A stretch of 33,327 bases of DNA from the IMG/VR virus record IMGVR_UViG_3300013005_006089, positions 1 to 33,327 of that record; one strand, given 5' to 3'. The notes beneath the pieces were generated by a model. That model ran no database searches. It saw only the letters and a program-made list of their open reading frames with translations, and was not told the DNA's origin. The translations under genes and the position numbers were made by a program. This document shows positions 241 through 29,973 of the stretch, piece after piece. This DNA is from a virus. How positions within the stretch are numbered: position 1 is the stretch's first letter; every line of letters starts with the position of its first letter.

Positions 241-591
241 ACGAGTTCGTCCTCGAGCAGTTCGTCCTCGAGCAGTTCGTCCTCGAGCAGTTCGTCCTCG
301 AGCAGTTCGTCCTCGAGCAGTTCGTCCTCGAGCAGTTCGTCCTCGAGCAGTTCGGATTCTCCGACGCCCACTCCGACATTCCCAACACCAACAGAGACGC
401 CCCCTACTCCGACCCAAACAAACTGCGTGCCGATAGACTGCAATGGAGCATGTGGAGTTTCTGACGGTTGCGGCGGCGAGTGTGCATGCCCCGCAGGATA
501 TTATTGTGATAACTACTATTGCGTACCCTCTGTCACCCCAACTTACTACCCAATTCCTTTCAGGAATTCTTTTGTGGAAATAAATTGGTGA
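1..591 (+). CDS. Thr-Pro / poly-Ser / Cys-rich surface-type protein, C-terminal part (5' end outside window)
   Basis: The open frame runs from base 1 to TGA at 589-591 (196 visible residues); the start lies upstream. In order it holds twenty 4-residue units of the TPTE/TPTA/TPTG type (residues 1-80), 37 consecutive serines (82-118), a Pro/Thr linker, then an eight-cysteine module (Cys 142-174, spacing C4C3C5C3C1C5C4C, containing CGVSDGCGGEC) and a short tail ending in W. This composition resembles extracellular stalk or mucin-like proteins, which are common O-glycan acceptors. In a phage it could be a fibre or virion decoration protein. The stop overlaps the ATG of the next glycosyltransferase (TGATG), which suggests translational coupling. 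No enzymatic domain is visible. That it is a glycan acceptor is inference. Confidence 0.7.
   Translation, partial: TPTATVTGTPTETPTETPTETPTETPTETPTATPTATPTATPTATPTATPTETPTETPTGTPTGTPTGTPTGTPTATPTETSSSSSSSSSSSSSSSSSSSSSSSSSSSSSSSSSSSSSDSPTPTPTFPTPTETPPTPTQTNCVPIDCNGACGVSDGCGGECACPAGYYCDNYYCVPSVTPTYYPIPFRNSFVEINW
244..354 (+). repeat. Seven 15-bp tandem repeats coding poly-serine
   Basis: Seven identical copies of AGTTCGTCCTCGAGC (244-348) followed by AGTTCG. Each unit codes five serines using four different codons. The identity between copies therefore reflects recent DNA-level duplication, not only selection for serine. Confidence 0.95.
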
Positions 592-1757
592 TGATTGATA
601 CTTTGATTCCTATATTCAACTTGACTCCTCTTAGAAGAAGGAATTTGGAGTTTATATATCAAAGACTTGTTGATGCCGGTGGTGATATAATTTTTGGCAT
701 TCAAGACCAGCACCCAGACCTTGACTATTACTCAAAGTTTGACAAAGCCAAATTGGTTTTTTGTAAAAGTCCAAGTTACAATCTTTTTAACAAGGGAAGA
801 ATATTTAACTTTTGCTCAAAGCAAGTCAATACTAAATTCTTCTTGTTCTTGGACGCAGACATTTACATATCATTAAATAGAATTTTAATTCGCGAAGACG
901 ACGAGGTCGTCAAGCCTTTCTCTCAGTGCGTTTATTTGGACCAAGAAAAGACTCTTGAGTTTTTGGAGAAAAGAAACACCCATGTGGATGAAAAATACAC
1001 AAGGGTTTCGTGTCTTGGCGGAGGGGCGGTTATCATCAAGACCGAATTTGCACTATCCCAGCCGCTTTTTGATGAAAAATTTTTGGGTTGGGGGTGGGAG
1101 GATATGGACTTTGGCGACCTGCTTAGGGCAAGGTTCAAAATAAGAACCATACGCCAGCCCGCCGTTCATTTGTATCATGAGCCTTCCCCTCCAAACAATG
1201 AAAACAGTGCCTATTATTGCAAAAAAGAAAAGCCAAAGTCCAAAATTGTTCATTTTTTTCATTTCAAATTAAGCAATGAAGTTTTTATATCTTATCTGAG
1301 CGAGAGGGGGATTGGCGTTTTGCTCATGAATTTTTCGGAATTAGACGGCCTAGAGGAAGACAGCGTCAAAATGTGTTACATGAATGATGAAGAAGCTTGT
1401 CTGAACTTCATGATATCCTCTTCCTTGCCGTATGTTGAGGATTCCGGATGGGTCTTGTATTTGGCTCCATTTGTAAAAATAGAGACCGGATTTTATCAGA
1501 GGGTTATGTCGCTAAAAGGTCACGCCTTAGTGATTGATCTTTCCGGAAGGGTTGTAGGATTTGCTTTGAAAAAATCTGATTTCAAAGGGTTCGGCGAATC
1601 TATTGGTCTTGATGGTTCCTACTTGGAGAGAGTTGCCCTTCTGCTGAGACAGCAAGGTTGCGTAGAGATTAATCTTCAAACTCATCCATGTCATTCTCTA
1701 ATGGAACCTCCCAATACATCTTATCGAGCCAGTGCTTCCATGTATCAAGAATCTTGA
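591..1757 (+). CDS. GT-A glycosyltransferase (galactosyltransferase/GT7-like) with extra C-terminal region
   Basis: 388 aa from ATG 591, which overlaps the upstream TGA; in-frame GTG 588 and TTG 519 lie further up. The N-terminal ~210 residues look like a GT-A fold: a DxD in FLFLDADIY (Asp 88/90), a GWGWEDMDFG segment (~166-175) typical of galactosyl/N-acetylgalactosaminyltransferases of the GT7 C-terminal type, and HLYHEP (~193-198) that could bind the metal. Residues ~215-388 match nothing I recognise. The last 89 bases overlap the 3' end of the opposing HNH gene, and the final residues look compositionally arbitrary, so the natural C-terminus may have been extended. Substrate unknown. Its coupling to the Ser/Thr-rich protein suggests that protein as a possible acceptor. 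Confidence 0.8.
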   Translation: MIDTLIPIFNLTPLRRRNLEFIYQRLVDAGGDIIFGIQDQHPDLDYYSKFDKAKLVFCKSPSYNLFNKGRIFNFCSKQVNTKFFLFLDADIYISLNRILIREDDEVVKPFSQCVYLDQEKTLEFLEKRNTHVDEKYTRVSCLGGGAVIIKTEFALSQPLFDEKFLGWGWEDMDFGDLLRARFKIRTIRQPAVHLYHEPSPPNNENSAYYCKKEKPKSKIVHFFHFKLSNEVFISYLSERGIGVLLMNFSELDGLEEDSVKMCYMNDEEACLNFMISSSLPYVEDSGWVLYLAPFVKIETGFYQRVMSLKGHALVIDLSGRVVGFALKKSDFKGFGESIGLDGSYLERVALLLRQQGCVEINLQTHPCHSLMEPPNTSYRASASMYQES

Positions 1758-2355
1758 TTCTTTCTTTTATGATTGAGTATTCGGGCTTTTTAGGCTCCTT
1801 CATCAATCGCATCGGGCTAGGGCCTATCCACTTTTTAGCTCTTTCTTTATCTTTTGGTTTGAATGCGTCCTCGGGTCTTCTGTCGGCCTTTTGGCTGTTG
1901 CACTGATAACATGCCAAGACGCAATTTGTCCAGTTAGTTTCGCCGCCGAGAGACCTGGGTACAATATGATCTAAAGTGCATTCGTCGTGAGCGGGTTTTC
2001 TTCCGCAATATTGGCACATATAATCATCACGTTTCCAAATAGATCTTCTGCAAAAGTTAACTTTTTGTTTGGGAATGGAGTCATACCTACTTAATATCAG
2101 AACCTCGGGTATCCGGTAAATCTTTGAGGCTGAAACTAGTCCATCTTCGTTTGACTCCGGTCTCAAATTAGACCAATCGCTCCACTGCCACACCTCATAA
2201 CTTCCCTTTGGTGGCGGAGTTATTATTTTGGCCTTAGGCTCTCCGTCCGAATAATGGCTAAAAAGAAGCGTTATCGCCCTCGGTAGCCCTATCACGCCCA
2301 CAGCGCACCAGTTTTTGTTGAGGACAAGAACTTTCTTGGAGATTGTGGCTTCCAT
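1669..2355 (-). CDS. HNH endonuclease
   Basis: 228 aa. The HNH core lies at residues ~105-160: CQYC (114-117), LDHIVPRSLGG with the DH pair at 129-130, an Asn at ~144 and CYQC (149-152), giving a zinc-binding Cys4 HNH module. The N-terminal half (VLVLNKNW…, …RIPEVLILSRY) is the extension seen in a widespread class of bacterial and phage HNH proteins. ATG 2355 has no strong Shine-Dalgarno; the gene sits 16 bases after glf on the same strand and is probably read with it. It may act as a free-standing homing-type nuclease or in DNA processing. No intron or target site is visible. Its 3' end overlaps the converging glycosyltransferase by 89 bp. Confidence 0.85.
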   Translation of the reverse strand: MEATISKKVLVLNKNWCAVGVIGLPRAITLLFSHYSDGEPKAKIITPPPKGSYEVWQWSDWSNLRPESNEDGLVSASKIYRIPEVLILSRYDSIPKQKVNFCRRSIWKRDDYMCQYCGRKPAHDECTLDHIVPRSLGGETNWTNCVLACYQCNSQKADRRPEDAFKPKDKERAKKWIGPSPMRLMKEPKKPEYSIIKERIKILDTWKHWLDKMYWEVPLENDMDEFED

Positions 2356-2371
2356 GCATTATGTACGCTTT

Positions 2372-3466
2372 CTATTTCAGCTCTTTTTCTGAGGCTTTCA
2401 AGGCCATGGATATGGTGTCATCCATGTCAAGGTACTTGTAGCTTCCGAGCCGTCCGGATATCAGCACATTCTTTTCTTTTTCGGCAAGTTTTCTGTACTT
2501 CCTATAAAGTTCGCCATTCTTTTCGTCGGTTATCGGGTAGTATGGATCCCTTGTCTCCCGCCAGTCTACAGGATATTCCTTGCTGATTATTGTCTTTTTA
2601 TGTTCCGGATTTTCAAAATGCTTGTGCTCCACTATTCTGGTGAAGGGCACGGACGCGTCTGTGTAGTTGACGCAAGAATGTCCTTGGAAGTCCCCGTCTA
2701 GCTGTTCGTGCTCCCACCGGAGGCTTCTGTATTCCAACTCTCCGTATGTTTTGTCAAAATAAGAATCTATACCGCCGCAGTATACTAGCCTTTTTGCATA
2801 CTTCTTCCATTTGTCCTTCATTGAGGAAAAATCCGTACCTAGTTCGACCTTTACCCCGCAGAGCATGTTTTCTACCATGCTCGTGTAGCCTCCTATTGGT
2901 ATTCCTTGGTGATTGAGGTTATGGAAATAGTCGTCATTGAAGGTGAATCTTATGGGAAGCCTCTTGACTATCGTTGCTGGTAGTTCTCTGGGATGCTTGT
3001 TCCACTGTTTTGTGGAATATCCCTCTATGAATGTTTTATAAAGTGTTTTGCCTATGTTTGAGAGGCACCATTCTTCCATGTTGCATGGATTTATGTGAGG
3101 GACTATGTCCTCCATGATCTTTCTTTTTGCCTCTTGGGGTGTCGTCACCCCCCAAATTTGGCTCATGGTCATGAGGTTGATGGGGAAGCTATAAATCTTG
3201 CCGCCAAAGTTTACGACGCCCTTGTGCCTGTAGTTGTTGAATTTAACGAAACGGTTGACATAATCCCACACTTCTCTGTTGTTGGTATGGAAAATGTGAC
3301 ATCCGTACGCATGCACATTGATCCCGTCGGTATTTTTTGTATACACATTTCCGCCTATATGGTCTCTTTTGTCCATGACCATGACGGTCTTTCCCTTCGC
3401 TTTAGCCTGCTGGGCGAATGTGGATCCAAATAGACCCGAACCAATGATTAAGTAGTCGTATTTCAA
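2372..3466 (-). CDS. glf: UDP-galactopyranose mutase
   Basis: 364 aa, the usual length for bacterial Glf. It converts UDP-galactopyranose to UDP-galactofuranose using reduced FAD. Visible marks are the N-terminal dinucleotide-binding motif IIGSGLFGSTFA (7-18), the MDKRDHIGGN segment (31-40), YGCHIFHT, KQWNKHP and a C-terminal GRLGSYKYLDMDD segment that fits the FAD-binding end of the family. The start is TTG at 3466, overlapping the upstream stop (TTGA); an AGGAGG site five bases before it supports that choice. It supplies activated Galf, so at least one neighbouring transferase probably uses UDP-Galf. Cytosolic. Confidence 0.95.
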   Translation of the reverse strand: MKYDYLIIGSGLFGSTFAQQAKAKGKTVMVMDKRDHIGGNVYTKNTDGINVHAYGCHIFHTNNREVWDYVNRFVKFNNYRHKGVVNFGGKIYSFPINLMTMSQIWGVTTPQEAKRKIMEDIVPHINPCNMEEWCLSNIGKTLYKTFIEGYSTKQWNKHPRELPATIVKRLPIRFTFNDDYFHNLNHQGIPIGGYTSMVENMLCGVKVELGTDFSSMKDKWKKYAKRLVYCGGIDSYFDKTYGELEYRSLRWEHEQLDGDFQGHSCVNYTDASVPFTRIVEHKHFENPEHKKTIISKEYPVDWRETRDPYYPITDEKNGELYRKYRKLAEKEKNVLISGRLGSYKYLDMDDTISMALKASEKELK

Positions 3467-3732
3467 TACCCCCTCCTGACTTTCACCACCAGATCCGTAG
3501 TTCCTTTTATGACTCTATGCCATTCTCCTCGGGAAATGCTTATTTCCTTGTCGATAGGTTCAGGAAGCGAATTGTCCCTCTGAAACATCCAGTCATTGTC
3601 GTTGAGCGGGATCACAACCCTGTCTTCCTCATCTCTGTGCCATTTCAGCTCATCCGGATCAACATCATTTGAAAATGTCCTGACATCGTCTTTTTCCGAG
3701 AATGGTAGTTCCATAATTTTATTAGAGTTCAT
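3463..3732 (-). CDS. Small cupin-like protein of phage type
   Basis: 89 aa. The pattern LKWHRDEEDRVVIPL … WMFQRD … ISISRGEWHRVIKGTTDLVVKV looks like a single small cupin barrel: His/Asp near residues 32-34, a Trp-Gln turn, and a late GEWHRV histidine that could be a metal ligand. I have seen similar short proteins in phage genomes but know no function for them. It overlaps the TTG start of glf by four bases, so the two are co-translated. ATG 3732 has no clear ribosome site; ATG 3714 is an alternative start. Confidence 0.6.
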   Translation of the reverse strand: MNSNKIMELPFSEKDDVRTFSNDVDPDELKWHRDEEDRVVIPLNDNDWMFQRDNSLPEPIDKEISISRGEWHRVIKGTTDLVVKVRRGY

Positions 3733-3767
3733 GGATGGTTTTTTGGACTTTTTTCATACATATTTCC

Positions 3768-4358
3768 ATGAGATTTGAAGAATACATCTCCCGAAGGAAG
3801 GGCATGAAGTTACTGCGTCAAGCCACTGTCAGCGAGGGCTTGAAGTACCATATTGATCGCGGCATGTGCCTTAACGAGAACATATACAGGATTTACAGCA
3901 AGGCGTGGTACGACCTTGTAATAGAAGCAAGAGCCCTTTATAATGCAGGGGCTCTCGCTCTAAACGACGAGGATGCCGAACTGGTAGAAAGCGATGCGGG
4001 AGAGATTGCCGAATACAAAGGCAAAAGAGTCCGTCTTGATTCTCCGTTTCCCATCAAGGAAAGGCTGGATGAGGCTGAGCACAAAGGGAAAAAGGTAAGG
4101 CTTGGCAAGCCATTCAGGACGCCCGGAGAGGGCAAGAAGTTCGCTGTATATGTCAAGACGCCTTCCGGCCGGGTGAAGAAGGTCAGATTTGGCGACCCGA
4201 ATTTGAAGGTGAGAAACGACAGCCCCGCCCGTGCGAAAAGTTTTCGAGCTAGGCACAAATGCTCCGAAAAGAAAGACAGGACCAAGCCCGGGTATTGGGC
4301 ATGCAATATCGCGAGGTACTCAAAGTCGGTCGGACTGTCGTCCTCCAGATCCTGGTGA
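3768..4358 (+). CDS. Phage protein of unknown function (MRFEEYISR…FRARHKC family)
   Basis: 196 aa from ATG 3768; the frame is open further up (3735) but MRFEEYISRRKGMK matches how this family normally begins. The N-terminal half has the LKYHIDRGMCLNENIYRIYS pattern, then EYKGKRVRLDSPF and EHKGKKVRLGKPF, and a C-terminal FAVYVKTPSGRVKKVRFGDP … SFRARHKCSEKKDRTKPGYWACN segment with two conserved cysteines. I recall this architecture only from tailed phages and marine viral contigs, sometimes near head or structural genes; the role is not established. It is strongly basic at the C-terminus, so nucleic-acid or scaffold contact is possible. It stands alone between divergent and downstream units and supports a phage origin for the window. 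Confidence 0.7.
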   Translation: MRFEEYISRRKGMKLLRQATVSEGLKYHIDRGMCLNENIYRIYSKAWYDLVIEARALYNAGALALNDEDAELVESDAGEIAEYKGKRVRLDSPFPIKERLDEAEHKGKKVRLGKPFRTPGEGKKFAVYVKTPSGRVKKVRFGDPNLKVRNDSPARAKSFRARHKCSEKKDRTKPGYWACNIARYSKSVGLSSSRSW

Positions 4359-4544: not shown

Positions 4545-5999
4545 ATGGACATAACGCTATTAACATGCACTTGGAACAACGAAGATTGTTTTGAAATAGA
4601 GAAGACTTCCCTCTATAGATCTTTCAAGAGGTTCAACCCCGAAAAGGAAATCGTTCATCGCCATTTTAACAGGGGAAAGTACCACGGGCTGGAAGGCCAG
4701 TTCTACGAAAGGTTCGGCCAAGAGAGCGAGTACATTCTGTACAAGATATTTCTCATGATAGAAGAGGCCAAAAAGGTAAAATCAAAATATGTGTTATTTT
4801 GTGACGCCAATGATGTAACATGCTTATCTTCCGTAAGCCGGCTTGATGGGGTTTTTGACCTTGACCGCTTCGTGATCTGCGGCCATGAGAAAAATCAGTG
4901 GCCCACTCCCGAAACAAAGGCCTCTTGGCCCAGATATCAAGATTATTCCGAAAAGGACACGCTCGGGGAAACCTATCTTAATTCGGGCATGATACTGGCA
5001 AGATCCGACAAGTATGCGGAAATGCTTCAAAGCATGGCGGACAATGTTCTGAGCCTTAATATAAACAATTTCAAGAACGATCAGGGCGTTTTTACATACT
5101 ACTACAACAGCCAGTTTGAGCCCAGGATAAAACTGGACTACTCCAGCGTTTTCGCCCTTAATACATTCAAGAGGCTCAAGGAAGACTTCTACTTGGACTC
5201 TTCTGGTGCCTTGGTTTCCAATGATACGGGCGTTCGTCCATGTTTCGTCCATGACAACGGATGGAACCACGGAAGCCCTAGGTTCCACAATGCGTTTGAA
5301 CTGAAGAGGCTCTATTCAGAGTCGTACGCCCATTTGAAGAACATTTCCACCCACAAAAACATAGGACAAGACCATCAGAACTACCTCAAGAGGCTTAGGG
5401 ATAATTTTGGATTCTATCCCAAGGTGGTTTACGACATGGGAGCGTGCGTCCTTTACTGGACTAAGATTGCGAGCGAGATATGGCCGGACGCCCAATATCA
5501 TTTGTTTGAGGCGATGGAGGAGTCTGAGGAACTTTTCCAAGAGACGCAATATCCTTATCACATCGGAGTGTTCAGCGACGAGGACGACAAAGAGGTCACA
5601 TTTTACAAGAATGTCCTTTTCCCAGGCGGAAACTCATATTACATGGAGAATCCCAAAGAAAGCCCCATAGCGGCTGATTTATTTGAAAATCCAGACAATC
5701 AATTCAAGAGAAGGACTCTGAAGCTTGACACCGTCCGCCAGCAAAGGAATTTTCCGTATCCTGACCTTTTGAAGATAGACGTCCAAGGGTGCGAGATAGA
5801 CATCTTGAGGGGAGCCACGGACATTCTGTCCCATGTGAAGCATCTCATAGTTGAGCTGCAGCATGTTGAGTACAACATAGGTGCTAAGTTGTGTCACGAG
5901 TCCATACCCATAATAGAATCTATGGGTTTCAAGTTGGTGACGCCTAAGTTCGCGATCTCCAGTCCGGCCGATTCGGATTATCACTTCGCAAGAATTTAG
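4545..5999 (+). CDS. Bifunctional PLOD-like glycosyltransferase fused to FkbM methyltransferase
   Basis: 484 aa. Residues 1 to ~260 resemble the procollagen-type (PLOD-like) glycosyltransferase fold: FCDANDV at 86-91 in the DxD position, TYLNSGMILAR (~143-153), NDQGVFTYYY (178-187), KLDYSSVFALN and a late HDNGWNHG (236-243) that could complete the metal site. Residues ~290-484 are an FkbM-type SAM methyltransferase: VVYDMGAC (294-301), FEAMEES, LLKIDVQGCEIDILRG (408-423) and LIVELQHVEY. The fusion predicts that one polypeptide adds a sugar and O-methylates it or the product. The start lacks a Shine-Dalgarno site. Its stop shares bases with the stop of the opposing carbamoyltransferase (TTAG at 5996-5999). 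Confidence 0.85.
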   Translation: MDITLLTCTWNNEDCFEIEKTSLYRSFKRFNPEKEIVHRHFNRGKYHGLEGQFYERFGQESEYILYKIFLMIEEAKKVKSKYVLFCDANDVTCLSSVSRLDGVFDLDRFVICGHEKNQWPTPETKASWPRYQDYSEKDTLGETYLNSGMILARSDKYAEMLQSMADNVLSLNINNFKNDQGVFTYYYNSQFEPRIKLDYSSVFALNTFKRLKEDFYLDSSGALVSNDTGVRPCFVHDNGWNHGSPRFHNAFELKRLYSESYAHLKNISTHKNIGQDHQNYLKRLRDNFGFYPKVVYDMGACVLYWTKIASEIWPDAQYHLFEAMEESEELFQETQYPYHIGVFSDEDDKEVTFYKNVLFPGGNSYYMENPKESPIAADLFENPDNQFKRRTLKLDTVRQQRNFPYPDLLKIDVQGCEIDILRGATDILSHVKHLIVELQHVEYNIGAKLCHESIPIIESMGFKLVTPKFAISSPADSDYHFARI

Positions 6000-7564
6000 T
6001 TCTTTGTAAAGTAATACCCGTCCAGGTATAGCCTGTCCAATTCCGTTTCGTCAAACACCTTGAACGCGTCTTTGTATGTTGACAGTATTGGCTTTCCGTC
6101 CACATTGAAGGAGGTGTTTACCAAGACCCCGATTCCTGTTCTTTTCTTGAATTCGGACAGAAGGTCGTAGATGAACTCGTTTTGTTCGCGAGTGACGGTT
6201 TGGACTCTTGCCGTTCCGTCAACATGTGTTACGGCCGGCAGTTTTGACTTGTAGCCCTCCCGGACTTTTGGACAAAAATTCATCCATCTGCTTTCGCCCT
6301 CCCACTCAAAGTATTCGGACACGTCCTCCAGTCTGACCACAGGTGCGAATGGCCGGTACCATTCTCGGTGCTTTACCTTGAGGTTCAGCGTGTCCTTCAT
6401 GTCGGAAGGTATTGGGGAGCAAATTATGCTCCTGTTGCCAAGTGCCCTAGGCCCGTGCTCCGAATTGCCTTGGACTACGCCCAGTATTTTGTTTTGCGTT
6501 AAATCCTCAACCATGGAATTCATGTCAGCCTTGTGGCCTCCGCGTGACTCCACATACTCCATGAGGCAGTTCTTGTCAAGCACTTCAATCCCCTTGTAGG
6601 TCACATCTATTGTCTTTTTGGGCTTGAAGTGTCTGCACAAGAGTCCCACCGTTAGCCCGCAGTCGGATGAGTTGGGAGCCACAAACACTTTCAGTCCGTA
6701 CTTCTGCTTGACAAGAGTGTTAAGAACTATATTCAAGGCGCAGCCACCGGACAACACTATCGGCAGATTGTGCTTCAATATGTGGGGCTCGGCAACCTCG
6801 AAGAATATATCTTCAAATATCTGCTGTGCAGTTCTTGCGAGGTCGTATGAGTTTTTTCCCGAAAGTTTGTTGGAAAAAGAAAAGTCTATGCCTATTTCCT
6901 TGGAAAGAACCTCGCCCTTCTTATGGTCGGGGCTTGTCGGGCCGAAGAAACTCATTCGCGTGCTGAAAAAGTCCCTCATAGGCTTTTTCCACGCCTCCAC
7001 GACTTCGCCGTAGGACTGCAAGCCGAGCAGCTTTCCTGCGGCCGTCAAGCAGTGGTATTTTCTTATCTCCTCGCAGTAGATGCCTATTACATTGTAGTTT
7101 GACCCCAGATCCACGCCCGCTTGCTCAATCAGTTCGGGATCCTTACCCCTCTCGGCTAAATAGAAATTGAACCACCCGTCGTTTGACCCTCCGTCAAAGG
7201 AAATGGCGAGCGCTTTTTCAAAAGGCGACTGGCAGAAGCTTCCGTACGCGTGTGAGGCGTGGTGGCTGTCGTCTATTATGTACTGTTCAGCAGGGATCGT
7301 GTCTTTGTAGGACTGCGGAAACGACGCATATCCGCTTCCTATTATGAATTTATCGTATCTGTCAAAGCCGAACTTATCTTTGAGATAGGAATAGAGGTTC
7401 GGCAGTATATTTTCGCGGCAGTTTATGGGCTCAAAAAAGTCTCCGCTCGCGTTTTTAAGATTAAGGAATCGTTCAAATTCTATTACAGAAACGACCTCGT
7501 CGTTTTGAAATACGGTCAAGGCCGCGTTGTGCCATGAGTGAAGTGCTATGCTTGGTAATGACAT
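5996..7564 (-). CDS. NodU/CmcH-family O-carbamoyltransferase (first of two)
   Basis: 522 aa. This family makes carbamoyl-adenylate from carbamoyl phosphate and ATP and transfers the carbamoyl group to a hydroxyl, often on a sugar. Visible are the HHASH iron-binding histidines (101-105), SFDGGSNDG (122-130), AAGKLLGLQSYG, LSGGCALN (271-278), and in the C-terminal YrdC-like half GNSEHGPRALGNRSI (366-380), REWYRPFAPVV and AVTHVDGTARVQTV, then NTSFNVDGKPI. Both halves are complete. AAAAGGAAAAG just before ATG 7564 is a good ribosome site. It lies 15 bases after the methyltransferase on the same strand, so the two are likely one unit. Acceptor unknown; sugar hydroxyls are favoured by context. Confidence 0.93.
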   Translation of the reverse strand: MSLPSIALHSWHNAALTVFQNDEVVSVIEFERFLNLKNASGDFFEPINCRENILPNLYSYLKDKFGFDRYDKFIIGSGYASFPQSYKDTIPAEQYIIDDSHHASHAYGSFCQSPFEKALAISFDGGSNDGWFNFYLAERGKDPELIEQAGVDLGSNYNVIGIYCEEIRKYHCLTAAGKLLGLQSYGEVVEAWKKPMRDFFSTRMSFFGPTSPDHKKGEVLSKEIGIDFSFSNKLSGKNSYDLARTAQQIFEDIFFEVAEPHILKHNLPIVLSGGCALNIVLNTLVKQKYGLKVFVAPNSSDCGLTVGLLCRHFKPKKTIDVTYKGIEVLDKNCLMEYVESRGGHKADMNSMVEDLTQNKILGVVQGNSEHGPRALGNRSIICSPIPSDMKDTLNLKVKHREWYRPFAPVVRLEDVSEYFEWEGESRWMNFCPKVREGYKSKLPAVTHVDGTARVQTVTREQNEFIYDLLSEFKKRTGIGVLVNTSFNVDGKPILSTYKDAFKVFDETELDRLYLDGYYFTKN

Positions 7565-8640: not shown

Positions 8641-8692
8641 GTGCCAGACAAGGCATTTTTTTTGGTGTACTTTGTAGGAAATTGGAGATTTG

Positions 8693-10668: not shown

Positions 10669-10683
10669 GTCATTATAATAGTT

Positions 10684-13183: not shown

Positions 13184-13204
13184 TTGTCTTGCTTACCTAA
13201 GATC

Positions 13205-19420: not shown

Positions 19421-19421
19421 T

Positions 19422-23437: not shown

Positions 23438-23545
23438 TCGTCCAATCTAATAAAAAACATAAGGTTTGATCAATAGCAAAAAGATCTATTTACATCTAGT
23501 GCTCCTCGTGCTAGACTTCCACTCAGTCTTTTACAGGAGATTTTC

Positions 23546-23830
23546 ATGCCGAAGAGAATTAAGGACAAAAACAAGAGCGTGCTTGTAAAGTTTCACGAGG
23601 ATGTTGCGGACAAAGAGATTTCTTCTATGCTTGCCTTGCTTGGCATCTCAGGGACAAAGGTCTCAAGCATTGTCAACCGATGGGCTGTGGAGGTTCCCTT
23701 CTGGAAGGAGGGGCATTTTGTGGCGAAGTTTAATGGCGATGAAAGGGTAGAGAAGGTTCACGAGAGCTTCGACAGAAAAAAGACGAGCTCAATTAGAGAG
23801 GAGGCCGATTCTGATGAAGAAAATATTTGA
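23546..23830 (+). CDS. Small protein resembling an I9/subtilase-propeptide fold
   Basis: 94 aa with an ACAGGAGA site 5-12 bases before ATG 23546. The core (KSVLVKFHEDVADKEISSML, then a turn, NRWAVEVPFWKEG, FVAKFNGDERVEKVHE) follows the beta-alpha-beta-beta-alpha-beta order of the I9 inhibitor/propeptide family, where 'vkF…ei…vP…V..V' positions are typical. The C-terminus is charged and probably disordered. No protease is encoded nearby, so if the resemblance is right it would be a free-standing inhibitor or chaperone. The match is by eye and weak; it could be an unrelated small phage protein. Overlaps the next gene by 17 bases. Confidence 0.6.
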   Translation: MPKRIKDKNKSVLVKFHEDVADKEISSMLALLGISGTKVSSIVNRWAVEVPFWKEGHFVAKFNGDERVEKVHESFDRKKTSSIREEADSDEENI

Positions 23831-24032
23831 CTTCAGAAACATGTTGGCCGAGCAAGGCGTGGAAATGACAATGGAACAAGCAAAAAAAGCCTACAAGATG
23901 GCTGGCAAGTTTATGAAAAGTGCCAAGAAAGTATCTGTTGCCGACATATGGTCTATTCAGTCGGCAGAAGGTTTGAGCCAGAAAGAAAAGGACGACATCA
24001 TTCGCCTCTATCAGTTTGCCAAAGAATTGTAA
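23814..24032 (+). CDS. Small helical protein, unknown function
   Basis: 72 aa. Predicted to be nearly all helix (QAKKAYKMAGKFMKSAKK, DIWSIQSAEGLSQKEKDDIIRLYQFAKEL), mixed charge, no membrane segment and no motif I recognise. GGAGG lies ten bases before ATG 23814 inside the preceding gene, with which it overlaps by 17 bases, so the two are one transcript. A strong terminator follows 41 bases after its stop. Confidence 0.65.
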   Translation: MKKIFDFRNMLAEQGVEMTMEQAKKAYKMAGKFMKSAKKVSVADIWSIQSAEGLSQKEKDDIIRLYQFAKEL

Positions 24033-24033
24033 T

Positions 24034-24273
24034 TCAATTTTTCTTTTTCTTTTTCAGATTCGGCTTCTTCTTGGAGACCCTCTTTTTAGAGGGTCTCTTT
24101 TTTGTTTTGGGTGGATTTTCTTCGTTGGATTCTTGCTCTTGCGGTTGCGGTTCTGTTTTGGCGTCTTCTTTGTTCGCCAATTCTTTTTCATAAGATTTAT
24201 TTGCCGATAGTACCAACGCCGTGAGTGCGATTGTCAATCCGATTATCATGAAGGCCGTAGTGGTTGTCGTCAT
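24034..24273 (-). CDS. Small single-pass membrane protein with Lys-rich tail
   Basis: 79 aa. One hydrophobic helix near the N-terminus (AFMIIGLTIALTALVLSA, ~7-24), an acidic Glu/Gln/Pro middle and a very basic tail (KKRPSKKRVSKKK and a terminal K5N). An AAAAGGACAAG site stands eight bases before ATG 24273. The basic tail would lie in the cytoplasm or contact nucleic acid or lipid; function unknown, with small phage lysis-accessory or anchor proteins as loose comparisons. Its coding region contains, on the opposite strand, the terminator of the converging two-gene unit. Confidence 0.6.
   Translation of the reverse strand: MTTTTTAFMIIGLTIALTALVLSANKSYEKELANKEDAKTEPQPQEQESNEENPPKTKKRPSKKRVSKKKPNLKKKKKN
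24074..24103 (+). terminator. Rho-independent terminator
   Basis: GAGACCCTCT-TTTT-AGAGGGTCTC, a perfect 10-bp stem with a 4-base loop, followed by six T. It ends the 23546-24032 transcript. On the minus strand the stem is not followed by T, so it should act in one direction only. Confidence 0.92.
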
Positions 24274-24326
24274 CTTGCTTGTCCTTTTCTTTATGTTTTT
24301 TGGTCTAGATCATTTTTTTGGTATGT

Positions 24327-24356
24327 ACTATATTAGCTACAACGGAACAGACACAA
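24327..24356 (-). promoter_or_regulatory. Possible sigma70-type promoter for the small membrane protein
   Basis: Minus strand: TTGTGT (24351-24356), 18-base spacer, TATAGT (24327-24332). The -10 is good and the -35 poor. It would give a leader of about 45 bases with the AAAAGGA site. Confidence 0.35.
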
Positions 24357-24382
24357 ACCGTAAAATTTAAAGGATTAGTCAA

Positions 24383-25630
24383 ATGGGCAAAATATTCGTA
24401 CAGATAGCTGCGTACCGCGACCCTCAGTTGAAGGCGACTCTCAAAGACATGCTTGAAAAGGCCAAGCGACCCGAGGATCTTGTTGTGGGAATAGCCTGGC
24501 AACACTCACCAGAGGACACATGGGATGATTTAGAGGATTATAAAAACGACCCCAGATTCAAGATAATAGATATAGATTACAAGGAATCTAAGGGCGTGTG
24601 TTGGGCTCGTCACGCAGTCCAGCAATTGTACAATTCGGAGGAATACACACTCCAGATAGATTCTCACATGAGGTTTGCTCAAGACTGGGACGAAACTCTC
24701 ATAGGCATGATCAAGCTTCTCCAGTGGAAGGGCCACAAGAAGCCTTTGCTGACCGCCTATGTCTCTTCATTTGACCCGGACAACGACCCGCAAGGAAGGG
24801 TTCTCTCGCCTTGGAAAATGAATTTTGACAGATTTATACCGGAGGGCGCTGTGTTTTTCCTTCCTGCCGAGATGCCGGATCATCAGTCTATGACCGAACC
24901 CTTGCCGGCCAGATTTTACTCGGCCCACTTCTGCTTTACTCTGGGTATATTTTCAAAAGAAGTGCAACACAATCCCGAGTACTATTTCCACGGGGAGGAG
25001 ATTTCAATTGCCGTTCGGGCATTCACGCACGGGTACGACTTGTTTCATCCTCACAAGGTCGTCGCGTGGCACGAATACACCAGGAAGGGAAGAACAAAGC
25101 AGTGGGACGACGACAAGGAGTGGGGAAGGAGAAACGAAAAGAGCCATCTTGCCAACAGGAAGATGTTTGGAATGGACGGCGAGGTTCAAGAAGGGCACGA
25201 TGGACTCTATGGATTCGGGAAGGAAAGGACAGTAAGAGATTACGAGAAGTACGCGGGAGTTTTGTTTTCTCGTCGTGCTGTGCAGAAAGAAACTCTTGAA
25301 TTTAAAAATCCTCCGAATCCAGTTTACAGTTGTGAAGAAGAGTGGCTTGCAAGCTTTTCCAGAGTCTTCAAGCACTGCATAGATGTCGGATTCAGTTCGG
25401 TGCCTGAACAAGACTATGAGTTTTGGGTTGTTGCCTTCCATGACGAAAATGGCGAGACAATTTATAGAAAAGATGCAGACAAGGAAGAGATAGCTCGAAT
25501 GCTGGCCGATAAGGACGGATATTGCAAGATCTGGCGCGAGTTTCAAACAACCGTCCAGCCCAAGAAGTGGGTCGTCTGGCCGTTCTCTAATTCAAAGGGT
25601 TGGTGCGAAAGAATGGAAGGTGGATTATGA
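24383..25630 (+). CDS. GlcNAc-family (Skp1-type) glycosyltransferase
   Basis: 415 aa, with AAAGGA ahead of ATG 24383. KIFVQIAAYRDPQLKATL (3-20), VVGIAWQHS, CWARHAVQQLY, YTLQIDSHMRFAQDWDE (~88-104) and YFHGEEISIAVRAFTHGYDLF are signature stretches of the GlcNAc transferase family (PF11397; Dictyostelium Skp1 GlcNAc-transferase type), where DSHMRF carries the DxD-like metal site. The C-terminal ~110 residues (from EEEWLASFSRVF) are extra and unrecognised. In eukaryotes the acceptor is a hydroxyproline; here unknown, though a Pro/Thr-rich protein sits at the left edge. First gene of a four-gene overlapping operon. Confidence 0.85.
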   Translation: MGKIFVQIAAYRDPQLKATLKDMLEKAKRPEDLVVGIAWQHSPEDTWDDLEDYKNDPRFKIIDIDYKESKGVCWARHAVQQLYNSEEYTLQIDSHMRFAQDWDETLIGMIKLLQWKGHKKPLLTAYVSSFDPDNDPQGRVLSPWKMNFDRFIPEGAVFFLPAEMPDHQSMTEPLPARFYSAHFCFTLGIFSKEVQHNPEYYFHGEEISIAVRAFTHGYDLFHPHKVVAWHEYTRKGRTKQWDDDKEWGRRNEKSHLANRKMFGMDGEVQEGHDGLYGFGKERTVRDYEKYAGVLFSRRAVQKETLEFKNPPNPVYSCEEEWLASFSRVFKHCIDVGFSSVPEQDYEFWVVAFHDENGETIYRKDADKEEIARMLADKDGYCKIWREFQTTVQPKKWVVWPFSNSKGWCERMEGGL

Positions 25631-26439
25631 AAAAGGTTCTTCTCGGCCTTTCCGACAACATAGACCTTCATAAGGATAAGGTCAGAATTTGGAGCGAGAG
25701 TTTTAAGCGACACTCCGATGGAAGAGTTGTTTTGTTGGCGGCCAACATGAGCGAAAAAGACATGGATGCTTGCAAGGCTTTAGATATAGAATTCAAGGAG
25801 GTCAAGGTAGATGAGCCTGGACAGATAAACCACAAGCGCTTGTCTCATATGTTGGATTATCTCAAATCCTCATCAGATGATGTTTTTCTTGTCACGGATG
25901 TCTTTGATGTGGCTTTCCAAGGCGATCCTTTTTCCAAGATGGACTTTGATAATTTTGAATTCTTCGCTGGCGGCGAGGGTATAGACGTTCATGAGGAGCC
26001 TTGGAATTTTGACAACATAGCGAAACTCTTCCCCGACCGGCTCGAGAGTTGCTTACATAGAGAAATAGTATGTTCTGGAGTGGTTGCTGGCAATAGGGGA
26101 GCTCTCGTTAAGGTTTATGAGAAGATGTTTGCCATGTGCGAGGCAAGCCCGAACACCCACGCCATAAAGGATCAGGCTGCCTTGATCGTCATGGTAGCTA
26201 ACAATGAGATTCCGAACATCAAGCTGTTTAACCTTGACGATGGGTGGGCGGTTCACTGTGCGGTTGCCGGACCAACCCAATTTTTTACTGCTTGGGGTTT
26301 CAATAACAAGTTAAAGTATGGCATTCCCTTTCTGGAGGGAGGTTTGGTTCGTACCGCAGCAGGAAATCCCTTCGACATTGTCCACCAGTTCAACAGAGTG
26401 CCCGAGTGGCACGAGGAAATAAAGTCTCAATATCCATGA
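25627..26439 (+). CDS. GT-A-like glycosyltransferase
   Basis: 270 aa from ATG 25627 (ATGA overlap; GGAAGG ahead); the open frame extends back to 25600. DDVFLVTDVFDVAFQGDP (~82-99) is a DxD segment like those in PLOD-related and plant or fungal GT families, then FFAGGEGIDV, CSGVVAGNRGAL, KDQAALIVMVAN and a C-terminal DIVHQFNRVPEWHEEI, whose HQFNR motif recurs near the active site of such enzymes. Family not named with confidence. Coupled to genes on both sides by 4-base overlaps, so it is made together with the GlcNAc transferase-like protein. Confidence 0.7.
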   Translation: MKKVLLGLSDNIDLHKDKVRIWSESFKRHSDGRVVLLAANMSEKDMDACKALDIEFKEVKVDEPGQINHKRLSHMLDYLKSSSDDVFLVTDVFDVAFQGDPFSKMDFDNFEFFAGGEGIDVHEEPWNFDNIAKLFPDRLESCLHREIVCSGVVAGNRGALVKVYEKMFAMCEASPNTHAIKDQAALIVMVANNEIPNIKLFNLDDGWAVHCAVAGPTQFFTAWGFNNKLKYGIPFLEGGLVRTAAGNPFDIVHQFNRVPEWHEEIKSQYP

Positions 26440-27224
26440 AGAATACATGCGTATCAATTTGTTCTTACCACCGAACCCTTCCTGAAGATTGTGACGGGAA
26501 CAAGGTTATAAGAAAGTTTGCAGCAGAAGGCTTTGAAAACTTTCGCGTCTTGTTTGACAATCAATCTGGCAAGTCCGAGGCAGAGGTTTCCGAGGCCTAT
26601 CAGTCGGAGGTTTGTTTATATAACGACGCAGATTTTGAAGAAAACTGCTTCAATCGACCGATAAGCAAGTATCACAGATGGGGAAGTCACCAGAACCCAA
26701 AGTATTTTTACGCTCATTTTAGGATGCTCGTATTTTTCCTCAAGAACCCGGGATTTGAATATTACTGGTTCTTTGATGACGATGTTAATTTTGATGGAAG
26801 CCTCAAGGACATACTTACGACCTACGAAGGTCTTCATGATGATTTTCTTGCCATCCAAGCGTTCAAAAAAGAGGATTATAAAGATTTTCCTAGGATAAGC
26901 GTCATAAACGACAGGATGGAGGGGTCTAGGGGGTTTTGGTTGGGGCATTGCCCAGGACCCGGCGACAATTTCAAAAGTTCCGAGAAGCACATTGGCTGCT
27001 TTTTCCCAATCGTAAGATTTTCCAAGAGATCCATGATTCATCTTTTGGATCTCAACAAAAGTGGTTATTTTGGTTATTCTGAGGGCTTCGTGCCTACATC
27101 ATTGGCTTCGGATGGCTTCAAAGTCGCCAGCATGATGGATGAGTTCAATAATTATTTCGTCAAAAACAACACAGACTGCGTACTTTATCACAAGGGAGCA
27201 AGATTCACATGGGAATGGTTGTAA
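26436..27224 (+). CDS. GT-A-like glycosyltransferase
   Basis: 262 aa from ATG 26436 (ATGA overlap); the longer frame from 26406 is less likely. CVSICSYHRTLPED at the N-terminus, EVCLYNDADFEEN, then FEYYWFFDDDVNFDGSL (~106-122) with the DxD metal site, FFPIVRFSKRSMI and GYFGYSEGFVPTSLASDG near the end, where the Glu of SEGF could be the catalytic base. I do not recognise a named family. The next gene starts 16 bases before its stop. Confidence 0.65.
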   Translation: MKNTCVSICSYHRTLPEDCDGNKVIRKFAAEGFENFRVLFDNQSGKSEAEVSEAYQSEVCLYNDADFEENCFNRPISKYHRWGSHQNPKYFYAHFRMLVFFLKNPGFEYYWFFDDDVNFDGSLKDILTTYEGLHDDFLAIQAFKKEDYKDFPRISVINDRMEGSRGFWLGHCPGPGDNFKSSEKHIGCFFPIVRFSKRSMIHLLDLNKSGYFGYSEGFVPTSLASDGFKVASMMDEFNNYFVKNNTDCVLYHKGARFTWEWL

Positions 27225-28591
27225 GTAAGCCCGTTATAGTTATGGCGCTTTATGATATAGGCCGAGACAATTGGAATTCATTCAACTTGTCTTATGACAC
27301 CTATCTTTGGTGGATGAAAAATACGCTTTCTATTGATGCGAATATAGTTATTTATACCGAGGAAAAGTTTGCATCCAAGATTAGGGACTATAGAAAGGAA
27401 TTTGATCCGGACTCCCAGAAAACCAAAATGGTCATCAGTCCCGTGGAGGAACTTGATTGCTATAAGTTGTATTATGACCGACTTAACGATCTGATGATGT
27501 CGTCGAACTTCAAGAAAAAGATACATCTTGAAGTTCCGGAGATGAACAGACCCCTCTACAACATCATCATGTTCAATAAACTGCATTTCTTGCAGCACGC
27601 CAAAAACGAGAACTATTTTGAAAATGATCTTCTTATATGGGCTGATGCGGGCGGGCTGAGAGAGTCTATTGATAATTACAAGGGAGCTAAATGGCCATCT
27701 TTGGACAAGGTTAATCAATTGGACAATTCCAAGATAACCTTCTTTAGCCACAGTAAGAACATAATAGTAAAGGACAAGGAGTACCATGCGCTTTCACAGA
27801 TCCGGTTCATTCAAGGAACGGCATTCTTTGTTCCAAGCGAATTGATAGATGGTTTGGTTGATGACTTCAATGAAACAGTGAATGAATGTATTGATTCTGG
27901 CTTCATAGGCAGCGATGAAAAGATTTTTGACATAACATATTGCAAGAACCGAGAGAAATATAATCTCATCAAGTGTGATTGGCGAACCTATTTCAAGATA
28001 TTCAAGGATGATGGGGTTAAGCTTTTTGACAAAAATGGAGAGCAAGCCAAGAGCATATTCATTGACCTTGGAGGCCATGAGGGGCAAGGGCTTTCTAGTT
28101 TGATAGATGTGCTTGATATTGACAACAGCTGGGAAGTTTACGCATTTGAGCCCAACTCTCTGATTGAAGATTTCTCTTCTGATTTTCCGAACCATGTGGT
28201 CAACTTTTCACGAAAGGCCGCATGGAAGAGAAATGGAAGGGCCATATTCAACCGATACGGATCGGACGGGAGAAGCCAAGGATCTTTGCTTGAGGAGACG
28301 GACGGAGGAAGGGGATACGGCGACTACTTTGATTACGAAGTCGTCCCGTGCCTCGATTTTTGGGAATTTGTCAAGTCCTTGGATGCTTCTAAGGAAATTT
28401 ACATAAAAATGGACATAGAGTGGTCAGAGTATGATGTCGTCTCTCGGATGCTCGAGATGGGATGGCCAAAAAACATTAAAAAGATATGGCTACAATGGCA
28501 CGGAACCAACGATTCCAAAATTGCTGCAAAGGCCGAGGAACTTCAGAAAAGAATAATCGCTGAAGGTACCCAAGTAGAGAAGTGGCGATAA
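27209..28591 (+). CDS. HtrL/WlaTC-type protein fused to FkbM methyltransferase
   Basis: 460 aa. Residues 1 to ~265 match the HtrL/YibB/WlaTC family found in polysaccharide loci: MALYDIGRDNWNSF (12-25), YLWWMKNTL, NIVIYTEEKF, LLIWADAGGLR (141-151, DAD as metal site), FIQGTAFFVP and GSDEKIFDI. Residues ~280-460 are an FkbM-type methyltransferase: IFIDLGGHEGQG (283-294), VYAFEPNS, KEIYIKMDIEWSEYDVVSRM (~396-415) and IKKIWLQWHG. The fusion suggests sugar transfer and methylation by one protein. ATG 27209 is used here; ATG 27215 is possible. Last gene of the operon, followed at once by a hairpin. Confidence 0.82.
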   Translation: MGMVVSKPVIVMALYDIGRDNWNSFNLSYDTYLWWMKNTLSIDANIVIYTEEKFASKIRDYRKEFDPDSQKTKMVISPVEELDCYKLYYDRLNDLMMSSNFKKKIHLEVPEMNRPLYNIIMFNKLHFLQHAKNENYFENDLLIWADAGGLRESIDNYKGAKWPSLDKVNQLDNSKITFFSHSKNIIVKDKEYHALSQIRFIQGTAFFVPSELIDGLVDDFNETVNECIDSGFIGSDEKIFDITYCKNREKYNLIKCDWRTYFKIFKDDGVKLFDKNGEQAKSIFIDLGGHEGQGLSSLIDVLDIDNSWEVYAFEPNSLIEDFSSDFPNHVVNFSRKAAWKRNGRAIFNRYGSDGRSQGSLLEETDGGRGYGDYFDYEVVPCLDFWEFVKSLDASKEIYIKMDIEWSEYDVVSRMLEMGWPKNIKKIWLQWHGTNDSKIAAKAEELQKRIIAEGTQVEKWR

Positions 28592-28624
28592 AAAAAACGG
28601 ACCCGCTTTGTTCAAACGGGTCCG
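28590..28624 (-). terminator. Rho-independent terminator of the minus-strand small-protein unit
   Basis: CGGACCCG … CGGGTCCG, a perfect 8-bp stem (28598-28605 and 28617-28624) with further TTTG/CAAA pairing in the loop. On the minus strand it is followed by at least seven T, so it ends transcription from 28865. The stem also closes the converging operon, though the plus strand lacks a T-run. Confidence 0.85.
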
Positions 28625-28646
28625 CCTAGAGAAACTTAGATTTATC

Positions 28647-28865
28647 TTAGTAGAGCCTCTGGGAGCACACGGTGACCGCGGGAACCCAGGCGCCGGACAT
28701 TGCGTTGCACATCATGTTGATCTTCGGGCAGCTTACCATGAAGTATTTCCATCCGCCGCACAGCTTCCTTCTGTTGCTGTTGGGGTTGGCGCAATTCTGC
28801 TTCAAAGTAGAGAGCACTCCGCGAGATTCGCCGTTGGCGGCGGGTTTGCGACAATAAAATGCCAT
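28647..28865 (-). CDS. Small Cys-rich protein, unknown
   Basis: 72 aa. Six or more cysteines are spread through the chain (CRKPA, QNCAN, KLCGGW, VSCPK, MMCNAM, VCSQ) with aromatic and Asn-rich stretches and no obvious signal peptide or membrane helix. The reading frame is supported by a perfect AAGGAGG at 28872-28878, six bases before ATG 28865, and by a terminator 23 bases after its stop. A competing frame (28642-28854) has no such site. The cysteines suggest a disulfide-rich or metal-binding mini-protein. I do not recognise it. Confidence 0.6.
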   Translation of the reverse strand: MAFYCRKPAANGESRGVLSTLKQNCANPNSNRRKLCGGWKYFMVSCPKINMMCNAMSGAWVPAVTVCSQRLY

Positions 28866-28944
28866 GTCATTCCTCCTTGTGTATAAAAAACACGTGTCAT
28901 TATTATTTACTGGGTGCCGGCATCATATCCGTTGTCGGCCGGAA

Positions 28945-29127
28945 TCATTTTTTTCCGACATAGTCGTAGAAAGTCTTGTCATCAAGATTCTTGTTTTCTC
29001 TGAGCCGATACAAGTAAAACTTATTCATGTGCGACATTATTATTTTTTCTTTGAAGCCTTTGTCGCCAATTGTTATTTTTGAGCCGCATAAAGGCCCACC
29101 CACAATCTCCGCGGAAATTTCTTTCAT
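28945..29127 (-). CDS. Small phage-type protein with GGPLCG motif
   Basis: 60 aa from ATG 29127, with ACAAGGAGG four bases before; a TTG three bases upstream is in frame. AEIVGGPLCGSKITIG resembles the 'VGGPLDG' beginning of many short phage proteins of unknown role, in which a beta-rich N-terminus is followed by a Tyr/Arg-rich end (KFYLYRLRENKN). The leader (ATGCACAAGGAGG) closely matches that of the Cys-rich gene downstream (ATACACAAGGAGG), so both are probably highly translated. Confidence 0.6.
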   Translation of the reverse strand: MKEISAEIVGGPLCGSKITIGDKGFKEKIIMSHMNKFYLYRLRENKNLDDKTFYDYVGKK

Positions 29128-29175
29128 CAAACCTCCTTGTGCATAAATATCTAGTGGGCTCGGCCGTTAAAGATT

Positions 29176-29973
29176 TCAACCCAGTCTTTTAATGTCCGCC
29201 AAGCACAACTTCCTGTTGTCTTCCATCACTCTTTTGGCATCTTCATTTTTTTCCCACAAATATTTCACAGTGCATCCTCCGTGATGTCTTATCCATGCCT
29301 TTGATGAGATGCCTTGAAGCAGTCCTTTTTTTCTCATTCTGTGTGTGAGCTCTTCATCCTCGTACCAGGCGTATGGATAGGACTTTATGAATCCTCCGAT
29401 ATAGGAGAAAAGATCCCTGTGACACATGGCGCAGAAAAGCGGCAGCGTTTCATTTTGAAGCACTATGTCCTTTTCTGCTTTTTCTCCGAAGTTGCCCATG
29501 GCCGCTTCGCAACCAACAGGATTATTCGATCTTGCCGACACCATCTTTACAGGGATCCCCTCCTTTTTCCAATTGAGCAGGGATTGCCCCATGCTGATCA
29601 TGAAGTTGGAATCTTCCACAACGCAGTCCGAATGCATCATCATCACCCATGGCAAGTTTGTGGCTTCAAACCCTGCCTTTAAGGCCGCCCCGAAACCTGA
29701 ATGCCGCTCCAGCCGTATGTATTGAATCTGGGGCTTGAAGCCTTGTGGCGTTGTTTTTATGAACTGTTTTTTTATTTCTTCGCCGAAATTTTTGTTGCCA
29801 GAGCAGTCGTCTACAAGTGTTATTTGATAAGGGTTGCTTCTGACCGAAATAAGTATGCTCTTTATAAGTTCGGTCACCTTTTCGTATTGGGAGTGGAATG
29901 GTATAAGTATATCCACCGGAGATCTTGAAAAAGGAGTGAATTCTAAGGGTCTGGATTTTACTGTCTTTTCCAT
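29176..29973 (-). CDS. Family 2 glycosyltransferase
   Basis: 265 aa with GGAG eight bases before ATG 29973. PVDILIPFHSQYEKVTELIKS (19-39), QITLVDDCSGN (VDD nucleotide-binding strand), RLERHSGFGAALKAGFEAT, WVMMMHSDCVVED (acidic site replaced by HSDC), PLFCAMCHRDLF and YAWYEDEELTHRMRKKG (ED-E catalytic segment) are the standard GT2 order. The N-terminal 18 residues are a basic, Ser/Pro-containing extension. It starts four bases after the phage-type protein upstream. Unlike the other GTs it lies among small phage genes, not in a GT operon. Donor and acceptor unknown. Confidence 0.88.
   Translation of the reverse strand: MEKTVKSRPLEFTPFSRSPVDILIPFHSQYEKVTELIKSILISVRSNPYQITLVDDCSGNKNFGEEIKKQFIKTTPQGFKPQIQYIRLERHSGFGAALKAGFEATNLPWVMMMHSDCVVEDSNFMISMGQSLLNWKKEGIPVKMVSARSNNPVGCEAAMGNFGEKAEKDIVLQNETLPLFCAMCHRDLFSYIGGFIKSYPYAWYEDEELTHRMRKKGLLQGISSKAWIRHHGGCTVKYLWEKNEDAKRVMEDNRKLCLADIKRLG

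Follow-up and report, generated by a model that had tools for sequence, protein, structure and literature searches.

A putative two-layer glycan island in phage DNA: a GT60-containing cassette, an exchangeable AT-rich slot and possible glycosylation of virion proteins

Large phage glycan clusters are already known from the cyanophages P-SSM2, S-SSM7 and S-SCSM1, in which many glycosyltransferase (GT) genes are clustered with methyltransferase genes and a carbamoyltransferase gene (PMC7824862, PMC3037559); whether such clusters are functional or stuffer DNA has been left open (PMC3037559). In the mycobacteriophages Che8, Corndog and Myrna, as cited in two reports (PMC12363180, PMC12619734), phage-encoded GTs modify capsid and tail proteins; few GTs are involved, and these phages are not known to have a comparable cassette or cargo slot. 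A GT60 gene was found in only 3 of 50,697 phage records, those of Xanthomonas phage XacN1 and Stenotrophomonas phages CM1 and RAS14. In all three, genes for a carbamoyltransferase and an HtrL-type protein lie no more than about 7 kb from GT60, and in XacN1 and RAS14 the three genes are adjacent and lie near giant late-region open reading frames (ORFs). Proteomics of XacN1 revealed at least two glycoproteins, with the phage GTs ORF328 and ORF334 suggested as their makers (PMC5852040). Here we describe a glycan gene island that combines a GT60 cassette with an AT-rich cargo slot in IMG/VR virus record IMGVR_UViG_3300013005_006089, analysed over its whole length of 33,327 bases (the window).

Like the P-SSM2-type clusters, the window contains many clustered GTs of several families together with modifying enzymes. 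Enzymes were assigned by Pfam and PHROGs profile searches, with g26 added by predicted fold, and 11 GT genes have profile or fold support (g01, g06, g09, g12, g13, g15, g21, g25, g26, g28 and g29). The WbsX gene (g13) was counted among these by its Pfam family name only; although that name says glycosyltransferase, we take the WbsX fold to be glycoside-hydrolase-like. The non-GT glycan enzymes, all supported by profiles as the sequence-only reading of this DNA had listed them, are Glf (UDP-galactopyranose mutase), two carbamoyltransferases, a sulfotransferase, a radical SAM enzyme and four methyltransferase domains (two FkbM, one Methyltransf_24 and one Methyltransf_23). About 18 glycan genes are thus supported by profile or fold and about 23 are likely, in agreement with the roughly twenty closely spaced glycan enzymes of that reading. 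Its remark that one or two GTs are common in phages falls short of what is known, since P-SSM2 and S-SCSM1 have clusters of this size. The carbamoyltransferase of S-SCSM1 shares 41.5% identity with g07; however, epimerases, isomerases and sugar kinases are present in the cyanophage clusters, whereas the window has Glf only, and no GT60 match was found in P-SSM2, S-SSM7 or S-SCSM1. In XacN1 (ORF330-334), RAS14 and CM1, GT60 shares 45–49% identity with g25 (49% for XacN1 ORF334), the carbamoyltransferase 42–43% with g07 and the HtrL-type protein 23–27% with g28. These loci comprise only about five genes, and Glf, WbsX, a PLOD-type GT fused to FkbM, a sulfotransferase and AT-rich cargo were not seen in them; homology of XacN1 ORF331 and ORF332 to g26 or g27 was not detectable.

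The core cassette is headed by g25 (24383–25630, + strand), a GT60-like (PF11397) N-acetylglucosamine (GlcNAc) transferase by its full-domain Pfam match (4.5e-69; 234 bits, cut-off 21) and its match to phrog_24687 (2.9e-169). It is followed on the same strand by g26 (25627–26439), g27 (26436–27224) and g28 (27209–28591), the last a fusion of an HtrL/YibB domain (PF09612, 1.1e-17) with an FkbM-like methyltransferase domain (PF05050, 1.7e-4, just under the cut-off). The g26 protein had no family match, and its AlphaFold2 model (pLDDT 74) retrieved UGGT, LgtC and glycogenin in Foldseek (E 3e-10 to 6e-8), which supports a predicted GT-A enzyme with a GT8/GT24-like fold. The conserved protein g27 carries a DDD motif and is probably a GT-A enzyme; its structure model was poor (pLDDT 57) and did not resolve the fold. 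Two further members lie 17 kb away, so that the cassette is split in the window: g06 (4545–5999, +), a PLOD-type GT (PF25342, 2.7e-8) fused to an FkbM methyltransferase (PF05050, 7e-13) and with homologues at 49–66% identity, and g07 (5996–7564, -), O-carbamoyltransferase 1 (PF16861, 1.9e-63; phrog_1601, 5e-118; 43% identity to XacN1).

A search for the same gene set in viral metagenomes, as the sequence-only reading had suggested, recovered this cassette. In contigs G005 and G006, GT60, g26, g27, HtrL, PLOD/FkbM and carbamoyltransferase genes follow one another in this order on one strand, with 53–69% identity to the window. The same six families are reordered in G003 (44–67% identity), where extra Glf-, GT90- and FkbM-like genes occur and a portal protein is encoded some 2.5 kb away, and contig L110 holds part of the cassette at 31–68% identity; homologues of g27 alone share 54–70% identity in G003, G005 and G006. 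Portal genes are also present on G005, G006 and G008 to G011. HtrL carries a fused FkbM domain in the window and in G005 but lacks one in G006, and G003 also has FkbM as a separate ORF. GT60 gene matches were found in 407 stretches of viral data. The GT60 loci L030–L109 show a layout that recurs in large phage contigs: after GT60, variable GTs and HtrL there is often a gene for a family B DNA polymerase (39 of the 89 sequences compared), and 33 of the 89 have a gene on the opposite strand that weakly matches a connector.

Genes g10 to g21 form an AT-rich cargo island (9598–20138), with 31–38% GC against 40–52% in all other genes (Mann-Whitney p 2.6e-6); the GC shifts at 9.6 and 20.1 kb coincide with gene borders. 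An independent assembly of 48.6 kb, IMGVR_UViG_3300010885_066665 (G001), has the same flanks, namely HNH endonuclease (78% identity), Glf (73%) and g05 (65%) on the left and GT2 (72%), g31 (48%), ligase (72%) and ParB (74%) on the right. Between them it shares with the window a Dda helicase (73%) and one C5 cytosine methyltransferase (79%), both inverted, and the rest of its slot holds mostly different genes that are also AT-rich (most 22–44% GC against about 53% outside). These include radical SAM genes, a Gly_transf_sug enzyme, distant g11- and g14-like genes and a g10 homologue (55%). With few genes common to the two slots, the contents are polymorphic between related phages, and the region is a hypervariable, exchangeable cargo slot. 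A scan of bacterial genomes with g17 found no relative, and bacterial WbsX matches reached at most 44% identity (the best mostly from Bacillota), their neighbouring genes having almost nothing in common with the window; these two scans did not reveal a donor of the AT-rich genes.

Since G001 has the same flanks and an AT-rich slot, and cassette homologues sit on portal-bearing contigs, the sequence comparisons support the window being phage DNA, as the sequence-only reading had supposed. Comparison of window bases 1–25,000 with the 50,697 phage records found no near-identical match, and ParB and HNH scans of viral contigs yielded nothing besides G001 and contig L002. G001 (L128–L130, 20–48 kb) carries a ParB-like protein with 37% identity over 150 aa to the 595-kb uncultured phage LR756511, as well as an ATP-dependent DNA ligase, clamp-loader-like ATPases and a transposase. 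By sequence, the phage of the window is probably of the large kind, like LR756511.

The family of g25 also offers a candidate acceptor. In Trypanosoma cruzi, GT60 transfers alpha-GlcNAc onto Thr of mucins, followed by galactose (Gal) and galactofuranose (Galf) extension (PMC9472816, PMC3769586), and eukaryotic GT60 also acts on hydroxyproline of Skp1 (PMC6939170). The g25 protein shares PF11397 with T. cruzi TcOGNT1 and with Toxoplasma and Dictyostelium Gnt1, and the Thr/Pro-rich acceptor proposed here is mucin-like; in contrast, the Golgi context is absent in a phage, and the activity, sugar and acceptor of g25 are predictions. In IMG/VR GT60 loci, the genes directly upstream often encode adhesin-like proteins with Thr/Pro-rich stretches. 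A direct composition test, which replaced a blast family ('F1') partly merged by low-complexity Thr/Pro repeats, detected a Thr/Pro-rich ORF in 71 of 80 GT60 loci; 129 of 130 such ORFs are on the GT60 strand, often ending 50–100 bp before it. The immediate upstream same-strand neighbour is Thr/Pro-rich in 44 of 93 loci and, after GT60 clustering at 85% identity, in 8 of 31 clusters (p ~7e-7; background 17 of 684 ORFs, or 2.5%, genome-wide in G008 and G009). In 41 control loci, only three Thr/Pro-rich ORFs occurred, all in loci also holding GT60.

The first ORF of the window (1–591, +) is of this type. It is the 3' part of a mucin-like ORF truncated at the window edge, with (TPTE/TPTA)n repeats, about 41 Ser and a Cys-rich end, and is a candidate glycan acceptor; its stop overlaps the ATG of the GT7-like gene g01. 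In-frame tandem repeats at 24–354 comprise a near-perfect 12-bp unit present 18 times (TPTE/TPTA) and a perfect 15-bp Ser unit present 7.4 times. Since Ser is encoded by four different codons within the Ser unit, the protein rather than a single codon run seems to be kept, and these repeats could change length quickly. Taken further, large phages may encode their own mucin-type O-glycosylation, with a GT60-like enzyme attaching GlcNAc to Thr in the Thr/Pro-rich stretches of phage adhesins from neighbouring genes, the cassette extending the glycan and the slot varying it; we advance this only tentatively and consider it the less probable outcome. A full-text literature search of partial coverage found no description of the GT60–Thr/Pro-rich adhesin link. 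This link is new here, together with the GT60 cassette in uncultured and cultured large phages and the AT-rich cargo slot.

We propose that the window carries a two-layer glycan island of a large tailed phage, whose soluble enzymes glycosylate virion proteins from host nucleotide sugars, and we put the probability of this reading at roughly 0.5. The first layer would be a phage-adapted cassette, rearranged in the window, of a GT60-like GlcNAc transferase, two GT-A enzymes, HtrL/YibB, the PLOD-GT–FkbM fusion and a carbamoyltransferase; the second would be the exchangeable AT-rich slot, supplying extra GTs and modifiers (methyl, carbamoyl, sulfo and radical SAM). The soluble-looking enzymes would draw on host nucleotide sugars, with UDP-Galf coming from Glf, and a short branched glycan would be assembled stepwise on phage structural proteins in the cytoplasm and capped by carbamoyl, methyl and sulfate groups. 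The most likely initiator is the GT60-like enzyme, which would attach GlcNAc to Thr residues where adhesin or fibre proteins are rich in Thr and Pro. The order of sugars may differ from this outline, and the benefit may be shielding or a changed adsorption or stability. Neither a convincing membrane protein nor lipid-linked machinery was found in the window, which we count in favour of virion glycosylation, and the XacN1 glycoproteins are its best experimental support, although not genetic proof. The sequence-only reading had suggested a complex decorated glycan for virions or for the infected cell surface; a decorated glycan is indeed the likely product, and the evidence leans to the virion.

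Several observations weigh against this proposal. No structural gene was identified by profile in the window or in G001, ORF334 is a candidate, not a genetically proven, maker of the XacN1 glycoproteins, and the enzyme roles are predictions from sequence and fold. With regard to the acceptor, 24 kb separate GT60 from the Thr/Pro-rich ORF of the window, and the association between the two is dominated by one large-phage lineage. At 75% clustering, only 3 of 13 GT60 clusters keep a Thr/Pro-rich neighbour (p 0.004), and diverged GT60 loci (L113, L115, L116, L122, XacN1 and RAS14) have no adjacent Thr/Pro-rich ORF; the candidate acceptors in the last two are the Thr/Pro-rich ORF325 of XacN1 and a 3,138-aa protein of RAS14. 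Conversely, when 80 viral stretches that code for (TP)5 were examined, the fetched DNA of only 5 contained GT60, which indicates that such stretches do not need GT60. Viral contigs (L146–L225) commonly hold Thr/Pro-rich coding stretches, most of them with no GT60 nearby, and these may be linkers or use other GTs.

The density of GTs had been likened to a complete capsule or O-antigen locus. So far as a fragment can show, this comparison fails on its defining features, because an initiating (phospho)glycosyltransferase, a flippase, a polymerase and an exporter (Wzx/Wzy/ABC) are missing among the Pfam families of the window, and because Pfam searches of all main ORFs found no sugar-nucleotide gene except Glf, the sugar-production set of isomerases, kinases, nucleotidyltransferases and epimerases being absent. 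No convincing membrane helix was found in the window proteins, in which the top hydropathy windows (at most 1.8) fall within enzyme cores, as do all segments that score over 1.6. A related but distinct possibility is that the island alters the surface glycan (O-antigen or capsule) of the infected cell and so blocks superinfection. This has been proposed for cyanophage lipopolysaccharide (LPS) clusters, and the kinds of enzyme and the sporadic, polymorphic content are as in P-SSM2-type clusters, which have been read in this way (PMC7824862, PMC3037559). That Glf and genes of the WbsX and HtrL/YibB types are familiar members of LPS or O-antigen loci also counts for this possibility. We nevertheless regard it as doubtful, since, besides the initiating, polymerase and export functions and membrane proteins, an acyltransferase was also not found in the window, a lytic phage is short of time for envelope remodelling, and XacN1, which bears GT60, has glycoproteins.

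Other targets and origins have less in their favour. Two C5 cytosine methyltransferase genes lie within the island, a phage carbamoyltransferase produces 5-carbamoyloxymethylcytosine (PMC8670742) and T in phage YerA41 bears an oligosaccharide-like substituent of about 1 kDa (PMC9023294), so that cytosines of the phage DNA might be methylated or hydroxylated and then glycosylated and carbamoylated. The carbamoyltransferases g07 and g17 belong to the same superfamily as the 5-hydroxymethylcytosine (5hmC) carbamoyltransferase of phage contigs (eLife 70021) but share only 21–25% identity with it; they have the GPRALGNRS motif of antibiotic carbamoyltransferases instead of GPRALCNTT, and at TobZ positions 421 and 423 they have G and R, as in NovN, where the 5hmC enzyme has C and T (position 408, V instead of W in g07, is not informative). 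Moreover, no thymidylate-synthase-type gene was found in the window, G001, G003, G005 or G006, all of which are fragments, and the C5 methyltransferase genes look like framework rather than cassette genes, because they adjoin the Dda helicase gene, which is kept in G001 together with one of them. A search for TET/JBP gave no match in 10 records, with the controls silent too. DNA hypermodification is unlikely. Still less probable, indeed very unlikely, is a secondary-metabolite-like pathway yielding a decorated small molecule or a sugar-amino-acid product: such a cluster was proposed in cyanophage S-SSM6a by Iyer et al. (PMC7824862), and NovN and GdmN, two antibiotic carbamoyltransferases, are the nearest relatives of g17 with a solved structure, but GTs form the majority of the genes, and Pfam found no halogenase, 2-oxoglutarate oxygenase, adenylation or condensation enzyme in the window. 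That the window is an assembly chimera, or a bacterial polysaccharide locus miscalled as viral, can hardly be credited despite the sharp GC changes at 9.6 and 20.1 kb and the lack of an identified structural gene. The parallel slot design in the independently assembled G001 argues strongly against a chimera, the GC borders are gene borders, the portal-bearing contigs hold cassette homologues, and in 80 bacterial WbsX loci two distant GT2 matches were the only further counterparts of the island's glycan genes; a bacterial or chimeric origin, which the sequence-only reading had named as its refutation, was therefore not borne out.

Cultured jumbo phages carry the GT60–carbamoyltransferase–HtrL cassette, and glycoproteins are known in one of them, which makes the target of such clusters (LPS, virion, DNA or filler) directly testable; the GT60–Thr/Pro-rich adhesin link names a candidate enzyme and acceptor. 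If that link holds, phages would have their own mucin-type O-glycosylation, and the exchangeable slot would change the virus coat, so that related phages would differ in their sugar coats.

The genes of the slot are tightly packed, as elsewhere in the window, with stop-to-start overlaps between several neighbours (e.g. g14-g15-g16-g17 and, in the cassette, g25-g26-g27-g28). They encode a Methyltransf_23 methyltransferase (g10, 9598–10668, -; PF13489, 1.2e-14); a possible GT with no Pfam, PHROGs or PDB match and with two homologues at 27–31% identity in the G001 slot (g11, 10684–11406, -); two PLOD-type GTs (g12, 11406–12149, -; PF25342, 1.7e-7; and g21, 19422–20138, -; 1.5e-16); the WbsX family protein (g13, 12146–13183, -; PF14307, 2e-103); g14 (13205–14101, +), which has a homologue at 27–32% in the G001 slot; a phrog_4447-like GT (g15, 14098–14895, +; 3.4e-5); a possible GT with no reliable family match (g16, 14892–15677, +); O-carbamoyltransferase 2 (g17, 15674–17371, +; PF16861, 2.7e-64; closest solved structure NovN, 1.3e-52), which is 31% identical to g07; a sulfotransferase-like protein (g18, 17368–18000, -; PF17784, 8.4e-7); a possible GT-A enzyme with no family match (g19, 17988–18707, -); and the radical SAM enzyme (g20, 18704–19420, -; PF04055, 5.1e-8). 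In G001, two radical SAM genes separate the helicase gene from the methyltransferase gene. Proteins g11, g14, g16, g19 and g27 had no Pfam match at E 0.01 and are likely but unproven GTs, and PDB sequence searches with g11, g25 and g27 profiles gave no match. Among the GTs named in the sequence-only reading, the three PLOD-type enzymes, GT90, WbsX, the GlcNAc-family enzyme, HtrL and GT2 were recovered and the GT7-like match was weak, whereas the GT-B label of g14, given by eye with no Pfam match, is unproven; of the other candidate GTs, g15 (by PHROGs) and g26 (by fold) gained support and g11, g16, g19 and g27 were not confirmed.

Outside the slot and cassette, glycan enzymes are encoded by g01 (591–1757, +), a GT7-like (galactosyltransferase-like) GT-A with a weak PF02709 match (0.0039; phrog_1721, 1.9e-5); g03 (2372–3466, -), Glf (PF03275, 3.4e-74; phrog_9677, 1.4e-127; 73–78% identity in two contigs); g08 (7580–8629, -), a Methyltransf_24 methyltransferase with an N-terminal extension (PF13578, 1.5e-8); g09 (8690–9589, +), a GT90-like GT (PF05686, 2.6e-11); and g29 (29176–29973, -), a GT2 family enzyme at the right border of the slot (PF00535, 3.4e-14). 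Non-glycan genes within the glycan span are those for the framework HNH endonuclease common to G001 (g02, 1669–2355, -; Pfam 2.9e-14) and for the Dda-like helicase and two C5 cytosine methyltransferases (g22–g24, 20146–23437, -; PHROGs), which are inverted relative to G001. Further framework genes are g04 (3463–3732, -), a small conserved protein with 73–75% identity in L003 and L002 and no Pfam or PHROGs match, and g05 (3735–4358, +), a phrog_7595 protein found at about 43–45% identity also in jumbo contigs G008 and G009.

Scans of the window for tRNA and Rfam RNA gave nothing useful. About 945 bp between the methyltransferase genes and GT60 (23438–24382) contain small ORFs only and no confident gene. 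A 30-bp direct repeat (77%) at 28867–28896 and 29127–29156 flanks the short gap before the GT2 gene and is possibly regulatory. In g31 (30461–31369), a block of about 207 bp is duplicated at 30774–31147, giving two near-identical copies of a short domain (NKSEMIRKYFEKHGMECKNKDIVDYALKTYK...) that is possibly DNA-binding.

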